From Propionibacteriaceae bacterium (GTDB lineage Bacteria; Actinomycetota; Actinomycetes; Propionibacteriales; Propionibacteriaceae): 58,040 nt of DNA. Within the stretch, counting starts at the first letter, position 1. Every line of letters starts with the position of its first letter. Below are positions 5,752 to 41,316 of this stretch, piece by piece. The DNA is taken from positions 1 to 58,040 of the forward strand of contig JAIRYW010000036.1 of the NCBI GenBank assembly GCA_031267645.1, given 5' to 3'. The notes beneath the pieces were generated by a model that had not been told where the DNA came from, made no database searches, and was given only the letters and a program-made list of their open reading frames with translations. The translations under genes were made by a program, and so were the position numbers.

Positions 5752-7151
5752 CACAGGCTCCAACGGGGGCCGGCCGGGGTGTCCTCGACGGTCACTCCTA
5801 GAGCGGTCAAACGGTCTCGTATCTGATCGGAGCTGGCCCAGTCGCGCCGGGCCCGGGCCTGCTGGCGTTGCTCCAAGAGGGACTCGACCAAGCCGGAGAC
5901 GATCTGGCTCAGATCGCCGTTGGCCCGGTCAGCCCAGATCGGGTAGTCCGCCCGTAAGCCCAGGACCGTCAACATGGCCTGGACTTGGGCCAGGCTGGTC
6001 TGGACCACCGCCGTCTGGCCGGCGTCGATGGCCCGGTTGCCCTGGCGGACCGTCTCGTGCAGCTGGGCCAGGGCGGCCGGAGTGCCCAGGTCGTCGTCCA
6101 GGGCGGCGGCGAAGGCCTCCGGCGGTTGGCCGGTCGCGGTTTCCGGGACCAGGTCGCGGGCCCGGGCCACGAAAGAGTCGATCCGGGCCAGGGACTGGCT
6201 GGCCTCGCCCAGAGCCTGGTCGGAATACTCCACCATCGAGCGGTAGTGGGGGGCGACCAGGTAATAACGGACGGCCCGGGGGGCGTACCGCTGGGCCACC
6301 TCGGTCACCAACATGCCGTTGGACAAAGACTTGCTCATCTTCTCGCCGGTCGGGTCGGTCACGAAGGCGTTGTGCATCCAATGGTGGGCGAAGTCCCGCC
6401 CGGCGGCCTGGGACTGGGCCCGCTCGTTCTCATGGTGGGGGAAGCGCAGGTCGATGCCGCCGCCGTGGATGTCGAAGGCGTCGCCCAGGTATTTCCCGGC
6501 CATGGCCGAGCACTCCAGGTGCCAGCCCGGCCGACCCCGGCCCCAGGGCGAGGCCCAGGAGGCGGTCTCGGGTTCGCCCGGCTTGTGCGACTTCCAAAGG
6601 GCGAAGTCTCTAGGGTCGCGTTTGCCCCTAGGGTCGGCGTCCAAGGCCGGAGCCAGGTCGTCCAGGCGTTGGCCGGACAGTTGGCCGTAACTAGGGAAGC
6701 TGCGCACGTCGAAGTAGACGTCGCCGCAGCCGTCCGCCGCCGGGTAGCCGTGGCCGCGGTCCAAGATGGCCTGGACCAGCTCGATCATCTCCGGGATGTG
6801 CCCGGTGGCGCGGGGCTCGTAGGTCGGCGGTTGGCAGCCCATCAGCTGGGCGGCCTGGTGCAGAGCCCGCTCGTACAGGTAGGCGTGGGCGTACCAAGGC
6901 CGCCCGGCTTCGGCCGCCCGAGCCAGGATCTTGTCGTCGATGTCGGTCACGTTGACCACCAACGAGACCTCCAAGCCACAGTGGGTCAGCCAGCGGCGCA
7001 GGGTGTCGAAGACGACTTCTTTGCGGATGTGGCCGAGGTGGGGCGGGGCTTGCACGGTCAGCCCGCAGCAGTAGATCGAGACCTGGCCCGGTCTTAAGGG
7101 GACGAAGGGGACCAGGCGGCCCTGAGCGGAGTCGTAGAGCGAGAAAGTCAC
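5751..7151 (-). CDS. cysS: Cysteinyl-tRNA synthetase
   Basis: A class I aminoacyl-tRNA synthetase that charges tRNA-Cys with cysteine; 466 aa, the usual length. The HIGH motif appears as HLGH at residues 38-41, and KMSKS is exact in GEKMSKSLSN near residue 270. Zinc-site candidates are C28/C29 in IYCCG, the Cys in GWHLECSAMA and HHENE. It heads a two-gene operon with rlmB. The cognate tRNA-Cys gene is elsewhere in the window at 41.0 kb. No T-box or other leader was noticed upstream. Confidence 0.96.
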   Translation of the reverse strand: MTFSLYDSAQGRLVPFVPLRPGQVSIYCCGLTVQAPPHLGHIRKEVVFDTLRRWLTHCGLEVSLVVNVTDIDDKILARAAEAGRPWYAHAYLYERALHQAAQLMGCQPPTYEPRATGHIPEMIELVQAILDRGHGYPAADGCGDVYFDVRSFPSYGQLSGQRLDDLAPALDADPRGKRDPRDFALWKSHKPGEPETASWASPWGRGRPGWHLECSAMAGKYLGDAFDIHGGGIDLRFPHHENERAQSQAAGRDFAHHWMHNAFVTDPTGEKMSKSLSNGMLVTEVAQRYAPRAVRYYLVAPHYRSMVEYSDQALGEASQSLARIDSFVARARDLVPETATGQPPEAFAAALDDDLGTPAALAQLHETVRQGNRAIDAGQTAVVQTSLAQVQAMLTVLGLRADYPIWADRANGDLSQIVSGLVESLLEQRQQARARRDWASSDQIRDRLTALGVTVEDTPAGPRWSL

Positions 7152-9781: not shown

Positions 9782-9930
9782 GACAAAACAAACCTTTCCA
9801 CGGGCGGTACGTGCCCGACGATCCTTAGTGGTGAAGGTGGAGCGCGACGCTCTGCCTCAGGGGTCAGTCTTGCACGATCGATCAAGGCCGCGGTAGGCGG
9901 GGTCGCTTTTGGTCAGCTAGGACGGACTTC

Positions 9931-36950: not shown

Positions 36951-38018
36951 TCAGGCCGTCGGGCCGGGCCCCGGAGCCGCGGCGGTCCGCTCGGCCGCGT
37001 CCGGGCCATCGGCCCCGGCCGACCCCTCGTCGTCGGGCTGGTCGGAGCCGAAGTCGGAACCGAAGCCGCGCTGTTCGTCGGCCGCCAAAGCGGTGTGTCG
37101 GTGCGACACCACAGCGATCACCAGCAAGGTTCCGGTGGCCAGAACGACGACCACGAAGAAGACCATGGCCAAGATGAACAGGGGCGAGGAGAAGTCGAAG
37201 GTGGACGACGGGGGGGAGCCGGCGGTGGCGGTGGAGGTGGAAGTGGCGGTGGCCGAGCTGGTCGGTCGAGGCGAGCCCGACTCGGTCGGGCTGGGACTGG
37301 TCTCGGGGGTGGCGGAGGGCGCCGGGACGGTCACGGCCAGTTGGACGTTCTGACTGGCGGCGGGGTAGTAGCCGTCGCCGGCGAAACGGGCCGTGACGCT
37401 GAGGCCGCTGGGCGGGTTCTCGCCCTCAGGCACGCCCAGATAGGCGTCGAAGGAGCCATTGGCGGACGTCATGACGGTGGCGGGGCTGTCGCCGCCCCAG
37501 GACAGACCGACTTCGATCAGGGCTCCGTCGACCGGGCTGCCCCGGCTGGTCAAGGTTCCGCTGATGGAGAAGGAGCCGCCCACGGGGACCGTGCTGGGGT
37601 CGGCCGACAGCGTCATCTCGGTCGTGACGGGGGAGGGCACGTCGATGGGTTGGGACCGGTTGGACGAGCTCCACTGGTCGTTGCCGGGCCATTGGACCGA
37701 CAAGACGTGGCTGCCAGTGGTCGGACGGGCCACCCGGACGGAGAAGCCGGTCGATCCGGTCGGGCCGGAGCCGACTTGGACGCCGTCGATCAGGACGTTG
37801 ACGACCAGCCCGGAGATGGGCCGCTCGGAGCTGTCGTGCAGGGTCCCCTCGACCAGGAAGCCGGCGCCGTCCGGAGCCTGATGGGTGATCTGGATGGTGC
37901 AATTCTGAGGGGCGGCCCATGCCCGGGGGGCAGCCATCGAACCGCAGGCCAAAAGGGCCAGCAGGCAGCCGACCAGCCAGCGGACGGCATGGCGTCTGGC
38001 GCCATGGTGCCAGAACAT
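36951..38018 (-). CDS. Exported membrane-anchored protein with Ig-like domains and Ser/Thr-rich stalk
   Basis: A 355-aa protein of unknown role. A signal peptide (VGCLLALLACGSMAAPRAWA) ends near residue 35. Two beta-sandwich, Ig-like or carbohydrate-surface-type segments follow at about 38-130 and 130-230, the second beginning TEMTLSADPSTVPVGGSFSI. A Ser/Thr/Pro stalk of ~45 residues leads to one transmembrane helix (FILAMVFFVVVVLATGTLLV) and an acidic cytoplasmic tail. The layout is that of a surface protein held in the membrane with its domains outside. No sortase motif is seen. It lies downstream of nothing obvious and is divergent from the Cys-leader unit. Confidence 0.72.
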   Translation of the reverse strand: MFWHHGARRHAVRWLVGCLLALLACGSMAAPRAWAAPQNCTIQITHQAPDGAGFLVEGTLHDSSERPISGLVVNVLIDGVQVGSGPTGSTGFSVRVARPTTGSHVLSVQWPGNDQWSSSNRSQPIDVPSPVTTEMTLSADPSTVPVGGSFSISGTLTSRGSPVDGALIEVGLSWGGDSPATVMTSANGSFDAYLGVPEGENPPSGLSVTARFAGDGYYPAASQNVQLAVTVPAPSATPETSPSPTESGSPRPTSSATATSTSTATAGSPPSSTFDFSSPLFILAMVFFVVVVLATGTLLVIAVVSHRHTALAADEQRGFGSDFGSDQPDDEGSAGADGPDAAERTAAAPGPGPTA

Positions 38019-38188
38019 TTGGGTCTCCTTGTTCCCCGAGCGGACGGGCCAAAGCTTATCCAGTGGGCTCGATCATGGCCAGGATCGGAGTATTGGCCCC
38101 GGCGCGGGTCGGCCGGCCCAGCTCGGCGGGAGGGTCCGGGGCCCGACGGCCGAGCCGGCGCGGAGGGGTCCTGTCTTCAGACGTTGAG

Positions 38189-38218
38189 TTGTCAGATCGG
38201 GTGCGGCCGTGCTACGGT
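38189..38218 (+). promoter_or_regulatory. Promoter of the Cys-leader/GST/amidohydrolase unit
   Basis: A -35 TTGTCA (38189-38194) and -10 TACGGT (38213-38218) are separated by 18 nt. The predicted start near 38225 leaves about 54 nt before the leader-peptide ATG. Confidence 0.5.
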
Positions 38219-38278
38219 CGGTCGCCATCGGGCCGACTAGGCGGTCGGCCTCAGTCGGCCACAACCACGGGAGGGGCC

Positions 38279-38326
38279 ATGGCAAAAGTCATGTTGATCT
38301 CTGTGTGTTGTTGTCTGTGTCTGTGA
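38279..38326 (+). CDS. Cysteine-rich leader peptide (probable attenuator)
   Basis: A 15-codon ORF reading MAKVMLISVCCCLCL, with GGGAGGGG just before the ATG. Codons 10-12 and 14 are Cys, all four TGT, although TGC would be expected in such a GC-rich genome. The size, position and dense Cys codons fit a leader peptide whose translation speed senses Cys-tRNA. Polycysteine short ORFs are known cysteine-responsive attenuators in mycobacteria. The next gene starts 138 nt after its stop, and that interval can fold into competing hairpins. The peptide itself probably has no function. It is too short to be called by coding statistics, so chance cannot be fully excluded. Confidence 0.7.
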   Translation: MAKVMLISVCCCLCL

Positions 38327-38351
38327 CGCGCTAGCCGACCCAATCTGCTAG

Positions 38352-38424
38352 AAGACGGATCGTTGCCGTCTTGGTGTGAACCACCCGCGTCCCCCATCGA
38401 ATCGTCCGGGCCGCGACGACGGCC
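38352..38424 (+). promoter_or_regulatory. Candidate attenuator hairpins between leader and GST gene
   Basis: Hairpin 1: AAGACGG (38352-38358) with CCGTCTT (38366-38372), a perfect 7-bp stem with a 7-nt loop, 25 nt after the leader stop. Hairpin 2: GGCCG (38409-38413) with CGGCC (38420-38424). CCGTC of hairpin 1 can instead pair with GACGG at 38418-38422, so the two are mutually exclusive. No U-tract follows, so control may act on translation or through Rho. Confidence 0.4.
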
Positions 38425-38464
38425 TCGTCCGTACCCCTCCTTCAGACACAGAGATGAGACCATC

Positions 38465-39547
38465 ATGACCACCAACCCTGCTTCCGACCGTCCCGCCGTG
38501 CCTTTCGTCGAGCCCTTGGCCGGCGACGGCCCCACCCCCGAGCGCACCGCCGACGGCGCCTTCGTCCGCCAGCGCAACTGGTTCAACACTCGTTTCGGCC
38601 CGGGTCCGGGCCAGGCTCCGGTCGAACCGGGCCGCTACTTCATTTTGGGCTCGCTCGGCTGCGGCTGGGCCCGGCGTCAGAACATTCTGCTGCGCTTGCT
38701 GGGCTTGACCGAGGCGGTGCCTTTTTATCTGTTGACCGGCAAGGACGAGATCGGCTGGATCATCTCCGAACAGGGCAACGACATCCGTCAGCGCTTCGGC
38801 TACGACCATTTGAACGGCTTCTACGAGCGGACCGACTCGGCTTACCGGGGCCGGGCCACCTCTCCCACCGTCATCGACGGCCAGACCGGCCTGGTGGTGT
38901 CTAACAATTACCACTTGCTACCGCAAGATTGGGAGACGGTCTGGCAGCCGTTCCACGCCCCGGGCGCGCCCGACCTCTACCCGGCCGACCTGCGCCAGTC
39001 GATCGACCTGCTCAACCAGCAGATCTTCGACGACGTCAACAATGGCACCTATAAAGTCGTGTTCGCACGGGGCGAGGCCGCCGCTCGGGTCGCCTTTGAC
39101 GTCTTCTACGCCCGGCTGGCTGAGTACGACTTCCGTTTGTCGACCCGGCGCTACCTCTTCGGCCCCCGCCTGACCGACTCCGACGTCCGCCTGTTCCAGA
39201 CCTTGTCCAGCTTCGAGCGCAGCTACCGTCCGGCCCTGGCCGGCCGTTTCGGCGAGGCCGCCACCAAGCAGGTTTGGGATTTCCCCAACCTGTGGGGTTA
39301 CGCCCGCGACCTCTTCGCCCAGGGTTTCGCCAGCCCGCAGGAGCAGTACCACCTGGGCTGGGCCCCGGACCAGTCGGGCCAGTACCTGTCCCACGCCGGC
39401 TTCGCGCCGGCCGGCTACGAATTGCGTCCGCCGGCCGAGTCCTTGGCGGCTTGGAGCGAGCCGGTCGACCGTTCCGGTCTGACCGACGCGGCCGAGGCCC
39501 CTGGCCCCGGCGGCGGCGGGTCGGTCGAGAACTGGACCTTCGCCTGA
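38465..39547 (+). CDS. Xi-class-like glutathione S-transferase / glutathionyl-hydroquinone reductase homologue
   Basis: A 360-aa thioredoxin-fold transferase of the YqjG/ECM4 type. The redox Cys is C66 in the motif CGWARRQ; the family usually has CPWA, so the Pro is replaced by Gly. VVSNNYHLL matches the VSNN segment that binds the thiol cofactor, and the C-terminal helical domain is complete (LFGPRLTDSDVRLFQTL). Xi-class enzymes reduce glutathionyl-hydroquinones. Since this organism has mycothiol genes, the cofactor may be mycothiol or another thiol. It is the first structural gene after the Cys leader peptide and 39 nt upstream of the amidohydrolase. Confidence 0.82.
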   Translation: MTTNPASDRPAVPFVEPLAGDGPTPERTADGAFVRQRNWFNTRFGPGPGQAPVEPGRYFILGSLGCGWARRQNILLRLLGLTEAVPFYLLTGKDEIGWIISEQGNDIRQRFGYDHLNGFYERTDSAYRGRATSPTVIDGQTGLVVSNNYHLLPQDWETVWQPFHAPGAPDLYPADLRQSIDLLNQQIFDDVNNGTYKVVFARGEAAARVAFDVFYARLAEYDFRLSTRRYLFGPRLTDSDVRLFQTLSSFERSYRPALAGRFGEAATKQVWDFPNLWGYARDLFAQGFASPQEQYHLGWAPDQSGQYLSHAGFAPAGYELRPPAESLAAWSEPVDRSGLTDAAEAPGPGGGGSVENWTFA

Positions 39548-39586
39548 TCCGGTCCGGCCGATCCAACGGCAGACCAGGAGTCTGAG

Positions 39587-40930
39587 ATGACCATCACCGC
39601 CTCGCGGGCGGTCGACGCGCCCCAGGCCGAGCCACCGGCCCGGGTCCTGTTGGCCGACCGCCTCTTCTCCGGCGCCAGCGCCGACCAGCTGGAGCACGCC
39701 GCCGTCGCCATCGCCTCGGGCCAGGTGGTCTGGGCCGGGCCGCGCTCGGAGCTGCCGGCCGCCTACGCCGACTGGCCCCGGCAGGATCATGGTGACGCCA
39801 CCATCCTGCCCGGGCTGGTCGAGACCCACGCCCATCTCGGCTCGTACAGTCGGGCAGCCCAGCCCGACGTGCCCGACCCGGCCCGCCACGCCGTCGCTTG
39901 GGAGGTCCTGTCCTCGGTCAAGATCGCCCGTCAACTGGCCTCGGTCGGGGTCACCACGGCGCAGTCCTTGGGAGCCCGGGACTACGTCGACGTGGCTCTG
40001 CGCGAGGCGGTCAAGGCCGGTTTGGTGGACGGGCCTCGGATCGTAGCGGCCGGGCCGCCCATCACCTTGACCGGCGGCCACAGCTGGTACGCCGGGGCCG
40101 AGGCGGACTCGAAGACCGAGCTGCGCCGTCAGGTGCGGCTGCACCACAAGGCTGGCACGAACGCCGTCAAAGTGATGGCGACCGGTGGTTTCATGTCCCA
40201 TTCGACGGCGCCTTGGAACGCCCAGTTCACGGTCTCGCAGTTCCGGGCCTTGATCGACGACGCCCACCGGCTGGGCCTGCACGTGGCCGCCCACGCCCAC
40301 GGCAGCGAGGGCATCCGACGGGTGGCTCAGGCCGGCGTCGACTACATCGCCCACGCCAGTTTCGTCGGCCCGGACGGCCGGACCGCCTTCGACCCCGAGC
40401 TGGCCGACCAGTTGGCCAGCGCCGGCGTCTACGTCGACCATTCGGCCGTGCCGACCTATCCGCCGGTGGCCGGCGAGGGCTTCGCCGCCCGGGCCTATCA
40501 GCTCTATCAGCACGGTGTCCGGCTGGTGGTCGGCCACGACATCGGAGCGGTGTTGCCGGCCAGCGCCTACACCTGGGGCCTGCGCCAGCTGGAGCAGGCC
40601 GGCCTGCCCCGGGCCGAGGTGCTGATCGCGGCCACCTCGCGGGGGGCGGCGGCGGTCGGGCTGGCCGGGGTGACCGGTGTGGTGGCGCCAGGGTACGCGG
40701 CCGATCTGATCGTGGCGGCGGGCGACCCCTTGGCCGATCTGACGGCCTTGGACCACCTGCTCGAGATCGTCCTGGCCGGGCGCCGGTTCGAGCCCGACCC
40801 GGTGGCCCGGTTCGATCCCCAGGAACGTTTGGCGGCTCCGGTCCGGGCCCCACTGGCCCCGGACGACGCCCGGGCAGCCCATCTGGAACGTCAACGTCGG
40901 CGAGCGGCCCATCCCCTGCCCCGGGGCTGA
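39587..40930 (+). CDS. Amidohydrolase family metal-dependent hydrolase
   Basis: A 447-aa TIM-barrel amidohydrolase of the imidazolonepropionase/prolidase-like group. Metal ligands are the two His in VETHAHLG, a probable carboxylated Lys in NAVKVMATGG, His in HVAAHAHG and HASFVG, and Asp in VVGHDIGA. An AGGAG lies 7 nt upstream. It hydrolyses an amide, cyclic amide or peptide bond; the substrate is unknown. Co-transcription with the GST homologue behind a Cys leader suggests a step in releasing or processing a cysteine- or thiol-containing compound. Confidence 0.85.
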   Translation: MTITASRAVDAPQAEPPARVLLADRLFSGASADQLEHAAVAIASGQVVWAGPRSELPAAYADWPRQDHGDATILPGLVETHAHLGSYSRAAQPDVPDPARHAVAWEVLSSVKIARQLASVGVTTAQSLGARDYVDVALREAVKAGLVDGPRIVAAGPPITLTGGHSWYAGAEADSKTELRRQVRLHHKAGTNAVKVMATGGFMSHSTAPWNAQFTVSQFRALIDDAHRLGLHVAAHAHGSEGIRRVAQAGVDYIAHASFVGPDGRTAFDPELADQLASAGVYVDHSAVPTYPPVAGEGFAARAYQLYQHGVRLVVGHDIGAVLPASAYTWGLRQLEQAGLPRAEVLIAATSRGAAAVGLAGVTGVVAPGYAADLIVAAGDPLADLTALDHLLEIVLAGRRFEPDPVARFDPQERLAAPVRAPLAPDDARAAHLERQRRRAAHPLPRG

Positions 40931-41001
40931 GCCGTCGACCCCGGGGAGCGCGGCATCAGCGCTCCCCGGCCCGGTCGGTCCTCAACCGGACCGGCCGGCT
41001 G

Positions 41002-41073
41002 GCTGGAGTGGCCGAGTGGTCGAGGCACAGGCCTGCAAAGCCTGACACGCGGGTTCGAATCCCGTCTCCAGCT
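41002..41073 (+). tRNA. tRNA-Cys (GCA)
   Basis: A complete cloverleaf of 72 nt. The acceptor stem GCTGGAG pairs with CTCCAGC, the anticodon loop is CTGCAAA with anticodon GCA, the T-arm is CGGGTTCGAATCCCG and the discriminator is U73, as expected for tRNA-Cys. CCA is not encoded. It lies 72 nt after the amidohydrolase gene. Confidence 0.97.
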
Positions 41074-41154
41074 CCGAGCCGGCCTGATTTCCCGGGCGAC
41101 GGGATTCGAGCCCGAGAGGGCGCGAGCGTCGAGCGGGACAGCCCGGTGGGGCGC

Positions 41155-41316
41155 TCAGACGGCGGGGCGGGGGCGTTTGAGGAAGGCCAACAGACCGTCG
41201 CCGGCCGGATTGGGCACCACGGAGACCAGTTCCCAGCCGTCGGCTCCCCAGGTGTCCAGGATCTGTTTGGTGGCGTGGATCAGGAGGGGGACGGAGGCGT
41301 ATTCCCAAGCAGTCAT
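41155..41316 (-). CDS. DUF4177-like small protein
   Basis: A 53-aa protein, MTAWEYASVPLLIHATKQIL at the start and DGWELVSVVPNP in the middle. The W-E-Y...D-G-W-E-L-V pattern is that of small DUF4177 proteins conserved in actinobacteria beside ponA2 (for example near M. tuberculosis Rv3682). It is divergent from ponA2 here, which supports a real gene in spite of its size. The function is unknown. Confidence 0.78.
   Translation of the reverse strand: MTAWEYASVPLLIHATKQILDTWGADGWELVSVVPNPAGDGLLAFLKRPRPAV

Follow-up and report, generated by a model that had tools for sequence, protein, structure and literature searches.

Short polycysteine open reading frames (ORFs) of mycobacteria are reported to serve as attenuators, in which a stalled ribosome is said to free the ribosome-binding site (RBS) of the next gene. 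Translation attenuation by these ORFs is stated in the excerpted text of PMC13236596, which cites Canestrari et al. (2020), and the same polycysteine work is cited in the excerpt of PMC9094748. Cysteine leaders were also predicted, in the available sections of Seliverstov et al. (2005; PMC1262725), for the cys operon of Mycobacterium spp. and Propionibacterium acnes and for cbs of Bifidobacterium longum. Here, we describe a 15-codon, cysteine-rich leader ORF ahead of genes for a glutathione S-transferase (GST) homologue and an amidohydrolase on contig JAIRYW010000036.1 of a Propionibacteriaceae bacterium (assembly GCA_031267645.1; genome, 2.85 Mb); the whole contig (58,040 nt) was analyzed and is referred to as the window. 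The nearest named relative in our searches, Propionibacteriaceae metagenome-assembled genome Gx481_bin45 (locus L045; genome G012), carries an 87% ortholog of the GST. Judging from sequence comparison and predicted RNA folds, we consider it fairly probable that the leader is cysteine-responsive and acts by translational attenuation. The features of the locus are:

38269..38276, plus strand: Shine-Dalgarno (SD)-like sequence of the leader, GGGAGGGG (GGGGAGGG in L045)
38279..38326, plus strand: 15-codon leader ORF, translated as MAKVMLISVCCCLCL (MVETVLNPVCCRLCL in L045)
38297..38306, plus strand: anti-RBS strand in register B, ATCTCTGTGT, pairing with 38446-38455
38306..38320, plus strand: Cys codons 10, 11, 12 and 14, all TGT, with Leu 13 between; TGT bias holds over the leaders
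38314..38323, plus strand: anti-RBS strand in register A, TCTGTGTCTG, within the last leader codons, forming 10 pairs with 38443-38452
38331..38351, plus strand: hairpin P1, CTAGC/GCTAG, its five pairs kept in L045 with one G-C changed to G-U
38352..38372, plus strand: hairpin P2, AAGACGG/CCGTCTT, the first hairpin of the initial annotation, with changes in L045 and a low fold probability
38408..38425, plus strand: hairpin P3, GGGCCG/CGGCCT, which includes GACGG at 38418-38422, from the predicted fold and the changes in L045
38443..38464, plus strand: GST ribosome-binding region, CAGACACAGAGATGAGACCATC, near-identical in L045
38465..39547, plus strand: Xi-class-like GST, 360 aa, motif CGWARR, a single Cys, from PDB relatives, alignment and Cys count
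39587..40930, plus strand: amidohydrolase, 447 aa, no Cys (PF01979, 1e-28)
41002..41075, plus strand: tRNA-Cys (GCA), the second copy in the genome and a candidate operon member

According to the mechanism we propose, ample Cys-tRNA would allow the leader to be read through and the ribosome to be released, whereupon the UGU-rich end of the leader would pair with the GST ribosome-binding region and little GST would be made. When Cys-tRNA is scarce, the ribosome would stall on the UGU run and cover the anti-RBS strand, the GST start would open, and GST and amidohydrolase would be produced. Ribosome stalling, the cysteine response and the function of the operon are what we infer here.

The leader had been proposed in the initial annotation as a 15-codon ORF with its own SD, 138 nt ahead of the GST ATG, and both its coordinates and its translation agree with our analysis. 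Cysteine accounts for four of its last six sense codons (codons 10-15 read C C C L C L), every one TGT, and TGC is indeed favored locally, with 16 TGC vs. 1 TGT in five nearby coding sequences (CDSs) that include the GST and amidohydrolase genes. A short ORF with a Cys run near its stop, lying ahead of an operon, is therefore present as in polycysteine attenuators. The reading frame stays open upstream as far as 37919; since an SD is present and SD and ATG are both retained in L045, the 15-codon start is the one we adopt. Genome-wide, the pattern TGYTGYTGYN{0,12}TGA matched 33 times. Among the 34 pattern loci (33 distinct places; two overlapping duplicates omitted, three matches having no locus), short-ORF ends with at least three Cys in the last eight codons were limited to the leader and one 6-codon ORF, the latter being the sole new case. 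None of six leaders matched an NCBIfam model at E<=1, and membership of a curated leader-peptide family was rejected. That the ORF is an untranslated product of chance is very improbable in our estimation: the frame is open far upstream and multi-Cys short ORFs do arise by chance (see the operon heads below), but SD, start, tail and stop are all conserved in L045 and such leaders are enriched at the heads of homologous operons. By these sequence criteria, the leader ORF is more than chance.

GST homologues were found in 5 of 19 genomes of the genus (E<=1e-3) and in 21 of 198 genomes of the family (E<=1e-60). The leader of the 87% ortholog, MVETVLNPVCCRLCL, retains three of the four Cys, and L045 keeps the SD (as GGGGAGGG), the ATG, the last codons, the stop and the 12 bases after it, along with hairpins P1-P3, the GST ribosome-binding region (one mismatch within the 28 nt ending in ATGACC) and a C-rich stretch, GTGTGAACCACCCGCGTCCCCC, that is the same in both species. 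Most codons in the front half of the leader and its flanks have diverged, while the tail and the RBS region are preserved, and this despite an insertion of ~100 nt in the gap between leader and GST of L045. The insertion belongs to a 109-nt repeat whose copies (L045 2815-2923 and 4057-4165; 87% alike) flank the GST, one in the leader-GST interval and the other between GST and amidohydrolase. The leader DNA was searched against 198 family genomes, of which 193 had a match at E<=1; besides the window, the one strong match was G012 (7.6e-33, plus 3.8e-6 for the RBS piece), the remainder being short (best, 8.9e-5). Wider sharing of the leader DNA within the family was accordingly ruled out.

Dissimilar Cys-rich leaders, however, precede homologous operons of GST, amidohydrolase and ABC-transporter genes. 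Including those of the window and L045, 16 leaders were found in 11 genomes; the others are:

L018, L029, L034, L036, L030 (Acidipropionibacterium; also L086), L084 (Ancrocorticia populi) and L233: leaders ahead of homologous operons
L002: leader at a GST paralogue in the same genome as the window
L055 and L076: leaders with the amidohydrolase as first gene
L183 (same genome as the window) and L184: leaders with ABC-transporter genes first
L190 and L195: further leaders

When a leader was defined as an ORF of <=45 codons with >=3 Cys in the last eight, leaders occurred at 9 of 27 heads of GST/amidohydrolase units vs. 6 of 162 other heads from the same 25 stretches (Fisher p=1.9e-5). Of the nine, L194 is doubtful and window/L237 and L190/L233 are near-duplicate pairs; of the six, two (L183 and L184) are at transporter genes that belong to GST operons, and the other four look like chance. 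The C57 unit of the window's own genome (L182) was left out, the simple gene caller having missed its GST. Directly upstream of the GST, a leader-like ORF was present in 6 of 79 loci (one of them, L053, with a TTG start and no SD), as compared to 1 of 79 on the reverse strand, none downstream and none farther upstream where sequence was present; the 73 loci with no leader directly upstream include all those of Bifidobacterium. At L065, L066 and L072, the operon head may lie outside the locus, since the DNA ahead of the amidohydrolase looks like the tail of a different coding frame. The pattern RCCR* gave 47 matches in the 19 genus genomes vs. 19 for the reversed pattern, and the 30 with loci, when examined, included no leader-like case except the C11 leader; the SD filter yielded none.

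Cysteine codons in the leaders are predominantly TGT (43 of 54 in 15 leaders, among them L034, L002 and L055, which have two Cys each and were picked by eye), as opposed to 57 of 332 in CDSs of >=300 aa from L182-L197 (odds ratio 18.9, p=2e-19). Since leaders that lack RBS pairing also show this bias, it is not solely a by-product of pairing; slow wobble decoding of UGU is a possible reason. Considering the Cys tail conserved in the nearest ortholog, the recurrence at homologous operon heads and the TGT bias, the sequences support the view that this thiol-linked operon is headed by a cysteine leader.

With regard to mechanism, the initial annotation had overlooked a complementarity, in two registers, between the Cys-codon tract and the ribosome-binding region of the GST gene. 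All ten pairs of register A are retained in L045, and its predicted probability is 0.29 in the window and 0.65-1.0 in L045; register B reaches 0.67-0.69 in the window and is not kept in L045. Taken together, the two registers give a predicted probability of RBS pairing of ~0.97 in the window. A ribosome footprint was then placed codon by codon on the leader and the predicted cost of opening the GST RBS computed. In the window, this cost was 13.8 kcal/mol without a ribosome and 13.6 kcal/mol with the ribosome at the stop, as compared to 7.9, 5.2, 4.7 and 4.9 kcal/mol when the codons for Cys 10, 11, 12 and 14, respectively, were in the A site. In L045, it was 11.2 kcal/mol without a ribosome and 4.6-4.7 kcal/mol on Cys codons. 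An RNA structure that closes the RBS and opens upon a stall, as expected of an attenuator, is thus predicted, with moderate support from shuffle controls. None of 60 shuffles of the whole sequence attained the real drop of 8.9 kcal/mol. Shuffling the interval left the drop intact in 23 of 60 cases, indicating that it does not depend on the interval hairpins. When the RBS was shuffled 5000 times, a 10-bp complement arose 178 times; among 10548 33-mers taken from the window, 11 had one.

Several observations weigh against this mechanism. The stop state of L045 is still fairly open (6.5 kcal/mol), stalls on codons 6-9 of the window open the RBS as well (6.3-10.0 kcal/mol) and early codons in L045 likewise lower the cost (6.2-8.5 kcal/mol); therefore, the effect is not restricted to Cys codons. 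The GST SD is weak. Shuffled leaders attained the drop of 8.9 kcal/mol in 7 of 100 cases and a 10-bp complement in 271 of 5000, so the pairing follows in part from UG-rich codons. These shuffles, and the fact that the ORF possesses an SD, would also suit a short ORF that is translated without sensing cysteine, acting by translational coupling or with the UGU tract as an RNA structure element only; we regard this as improbable, since differing Cys leaders recur at homologous operons and the TGT bias is present in leaders without RBS pairing. Thirteen other leaders were folded alike (L018, L034, L036, L029, L030, L084, L002, L183, L184, L055, L076, L190 and L195), and a window-like fall in RBS cost was seen in none of them; the fall was moderate in L184 (from 11.4 to 7.8-9.1 kcal/mol, on later Cys codons) and small in L036 (from 4.7 to 2.7 kcal/mol). 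Because these leaders lack a comparable fall, we argue for the RBS mechanism in the window/L045 species pair only. Finally, the leader DNA recurs in just one other of the family genomes searched. Failure of the leader codons to be conserved among relatives had been set beforehand as grounds for refutation, and here the outcome is divided: they are kept in the 87% ortholog, but no leader occurs at the 71% ortholog L006 (unit L230), although its amidohydrolase is present, or ahead of the 67% homologue L007 (unit L231).

The initial annotation had instead envisaged control by two hairpins competing through CCGTC/GACGG. The competition exists as sequence: CCGTC (38366-38370) has a local partner GACGG at 38354-38358 and a distal one at 38418-38422, the minimum-energy fold of the window takes the distal pairing, and both GACGG copies and CCGTC are retained in L045. 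In P2, the local hairpin, two A-U pairs differ in L045, one having become G-C through a double change and the other G-U; in P3, L045 has two one-sided changes that preserve pairing. As the main switch, however, the competition is not supported, given the low predicted probabilities (local hairpin, 0.04 in the window and 0.07 in L045; distal alternative in L045, 0.03) and the pairing of Cys tract and RBS as the predicted control element. P2 may yet have a role, e.g., in setting distance or Rho access. The leader interval contains no terminator-like site, the sole one in 37900-41200 sitting inside the GST gene, so classical transcription termination is not indicated; a classical transcription attenuator was rejected on the same ground, there being no intrinsic terminator before the structural gene. 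Transcription could conceivably be controlled through Rho, if the C-rich untranslated RNA were a Rho site to which leader translation or stalling set access in response to cysteine. Consistent with this, GTGTGAACCACCCGCGTCCCCC is unchanged between the two species, the family's other Cys leaders lack RBS pairing, and Rho was suggested for the mycobacterial and P. acnes cys leaders in the available text of PMC1262725. Nevertheless, we hold Rho control to be unlikely, as it leaves the conserved complementarity between Cys tract and RBS unexplained, and translational attenuation is the reading we retain.

A divergent gene ending at 38018 and the GST start at 38465 bound the region that holds the leader ORF. 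The nearest structures to the GST are 4pts (7e-45) and 3m1g (8e-42), the latter presumably a Corynebacterium-type relative. By homology and a catalytic Cys (C66), the protein belongs with the Xi-class GSTs (mycothiol S-transferases), with CGWA in place of the Xi-class C-P-W-A motif. The Acidipropionibacterium GST (L030), unlike most aligned homologues, has Ser at the catalytic Cys position (SGWS). Since the genome encodes MshC (above the model cut-off), mycothiol is a likely partner thiol. For the amidohydrolase, the closest NCBIfam model is Xaa-Pro dipeptidase, under its cut-off, and 20 of the 117 loci compared have an amidohydrolase close to a GST homologue, a count in which some places appear twice, one case is weak (25%) and two are on the opposite strand. 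At L190, genes for a GNAT-GST protein and for an ABC importer come next in the operon; the solute-binding protein of the importer is of family 5 (SBP_bac_5; TIGR04028 under cut-off). ABC-transporter genes also lie near the GST homologue in Symbiopectobacterium, Gilliamella and Clostridium; cystine models match their permeases and ATPases best, all under cut-offs, and among the binding proteins that of L094 is best matched by a cystine model (under cut-off) and that of L089 better by a lysine/arginine/ornithine model. At L083, the transporter is encoded on the opposite strand. Cysteine is scarce in the operon proteins, making up 1 of 807 residues here (GST C66; p=0.044) and 5 of 2775 at L190 (p=7e-4); in other operons, Cys is under background, although not significantly (p=0.085 to 0.35). 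Considering the transporter matches, the Cys leaders and the Cys-poor proteins together, this operon type (GST, amidohydrolase and, in relatives, an oligopeptide-type ABC importer) probably salvages cysteine or other thiols.

The tRNA-Cys gene, also overlooked initially, starts 71 nt past the amidohydrolase; the genome's other copy lies in a Gly-Cys-Val cluster elsewhere. In a scan of 80 loci (some overlapping, with the same places included twice), three places, each in a different genome, had tRNA-Cys beside a GST gene: window 41002-41075, L055 3694-3765 (L055/L021; 75 nt after the GST) and L012 2458-2529 (directly ahead of a GST paralogue). A conserved operon membership was rejected, tRNA-Cys being found at only two places besides the window and absent in L045; the proximity could reflect chance, an integration site or co-transcription. 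Elsewhere on the contig, a cysteine--tRNA ligase is encoded at 5964-7151 on the minus strand (TIGR00435, above cut-off), and an msiK RNA motif (RF01747, above gathering score) lies at 9786-9843 on the same strand.

If cysteine shortage does induce the operon, a thiol or sulfur source would be its likely substrate, and regulation by the leader would hint at what this GST/amidohydrolase/ABC-transporter operon type, so far unassigned, does. Polycysteine attenuation would then reach beyond biosynthetic operons to a scavenging operon, in a compact design whose sensing codons double as the anti-RBS strand. A broader proposal, which we offer tentatively and think somewhat doubtful, is a new actinobacterial cysteine-starvation regulon in which GST, amidohydrolase, GNAT-GST and an oligopeptide-type ABC importer would salvage thiols or S-conjugates. 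It would be induced by Cys-codon leaders that have repeatedly evolved or been re-made, stay at the operon head despite changes in gene order, prefer wobble-read UGU and, in this clade, use their Cys codons as the anti-RBS strand; the operon may also carry its own tRNA-Cys.

The initial annotation held that a polycysteine attenuator over such an operon had not been described, and we likewise found none in open-licence PMC literature, represented mostly by titles and the beginnings of abstracts. The attenuation principle is already known; the operon type controlled and the regulon are possibly new. As in the mycobacterial attenuators, a short ORF with a Cys run lies ahead of an operon. Those attenuators are reportedly leaderless, whereas here an SD precedes the leader ATG and is kept in L045, and their downstream genes are different. 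In the predicted fold of our locus the Cys codons are themselves the anti-RBS strand. The GST is of the same class by homology as the Xi-class mycothiol S-transferase MstX of Corynebacterium glutamicum (PMC6815410, in its available portion), with C-G-W-A where MstX has C-P-W-A; that portion mentions no operon for MstX. The leaders in the available text of PMC1262725, which are partly from the same family, likewise have runs of Cys codons close to the stop of a short ORF, but they precede biosynthetic genes and have no conserved hairpins, and their mechanism was left open by the authors.

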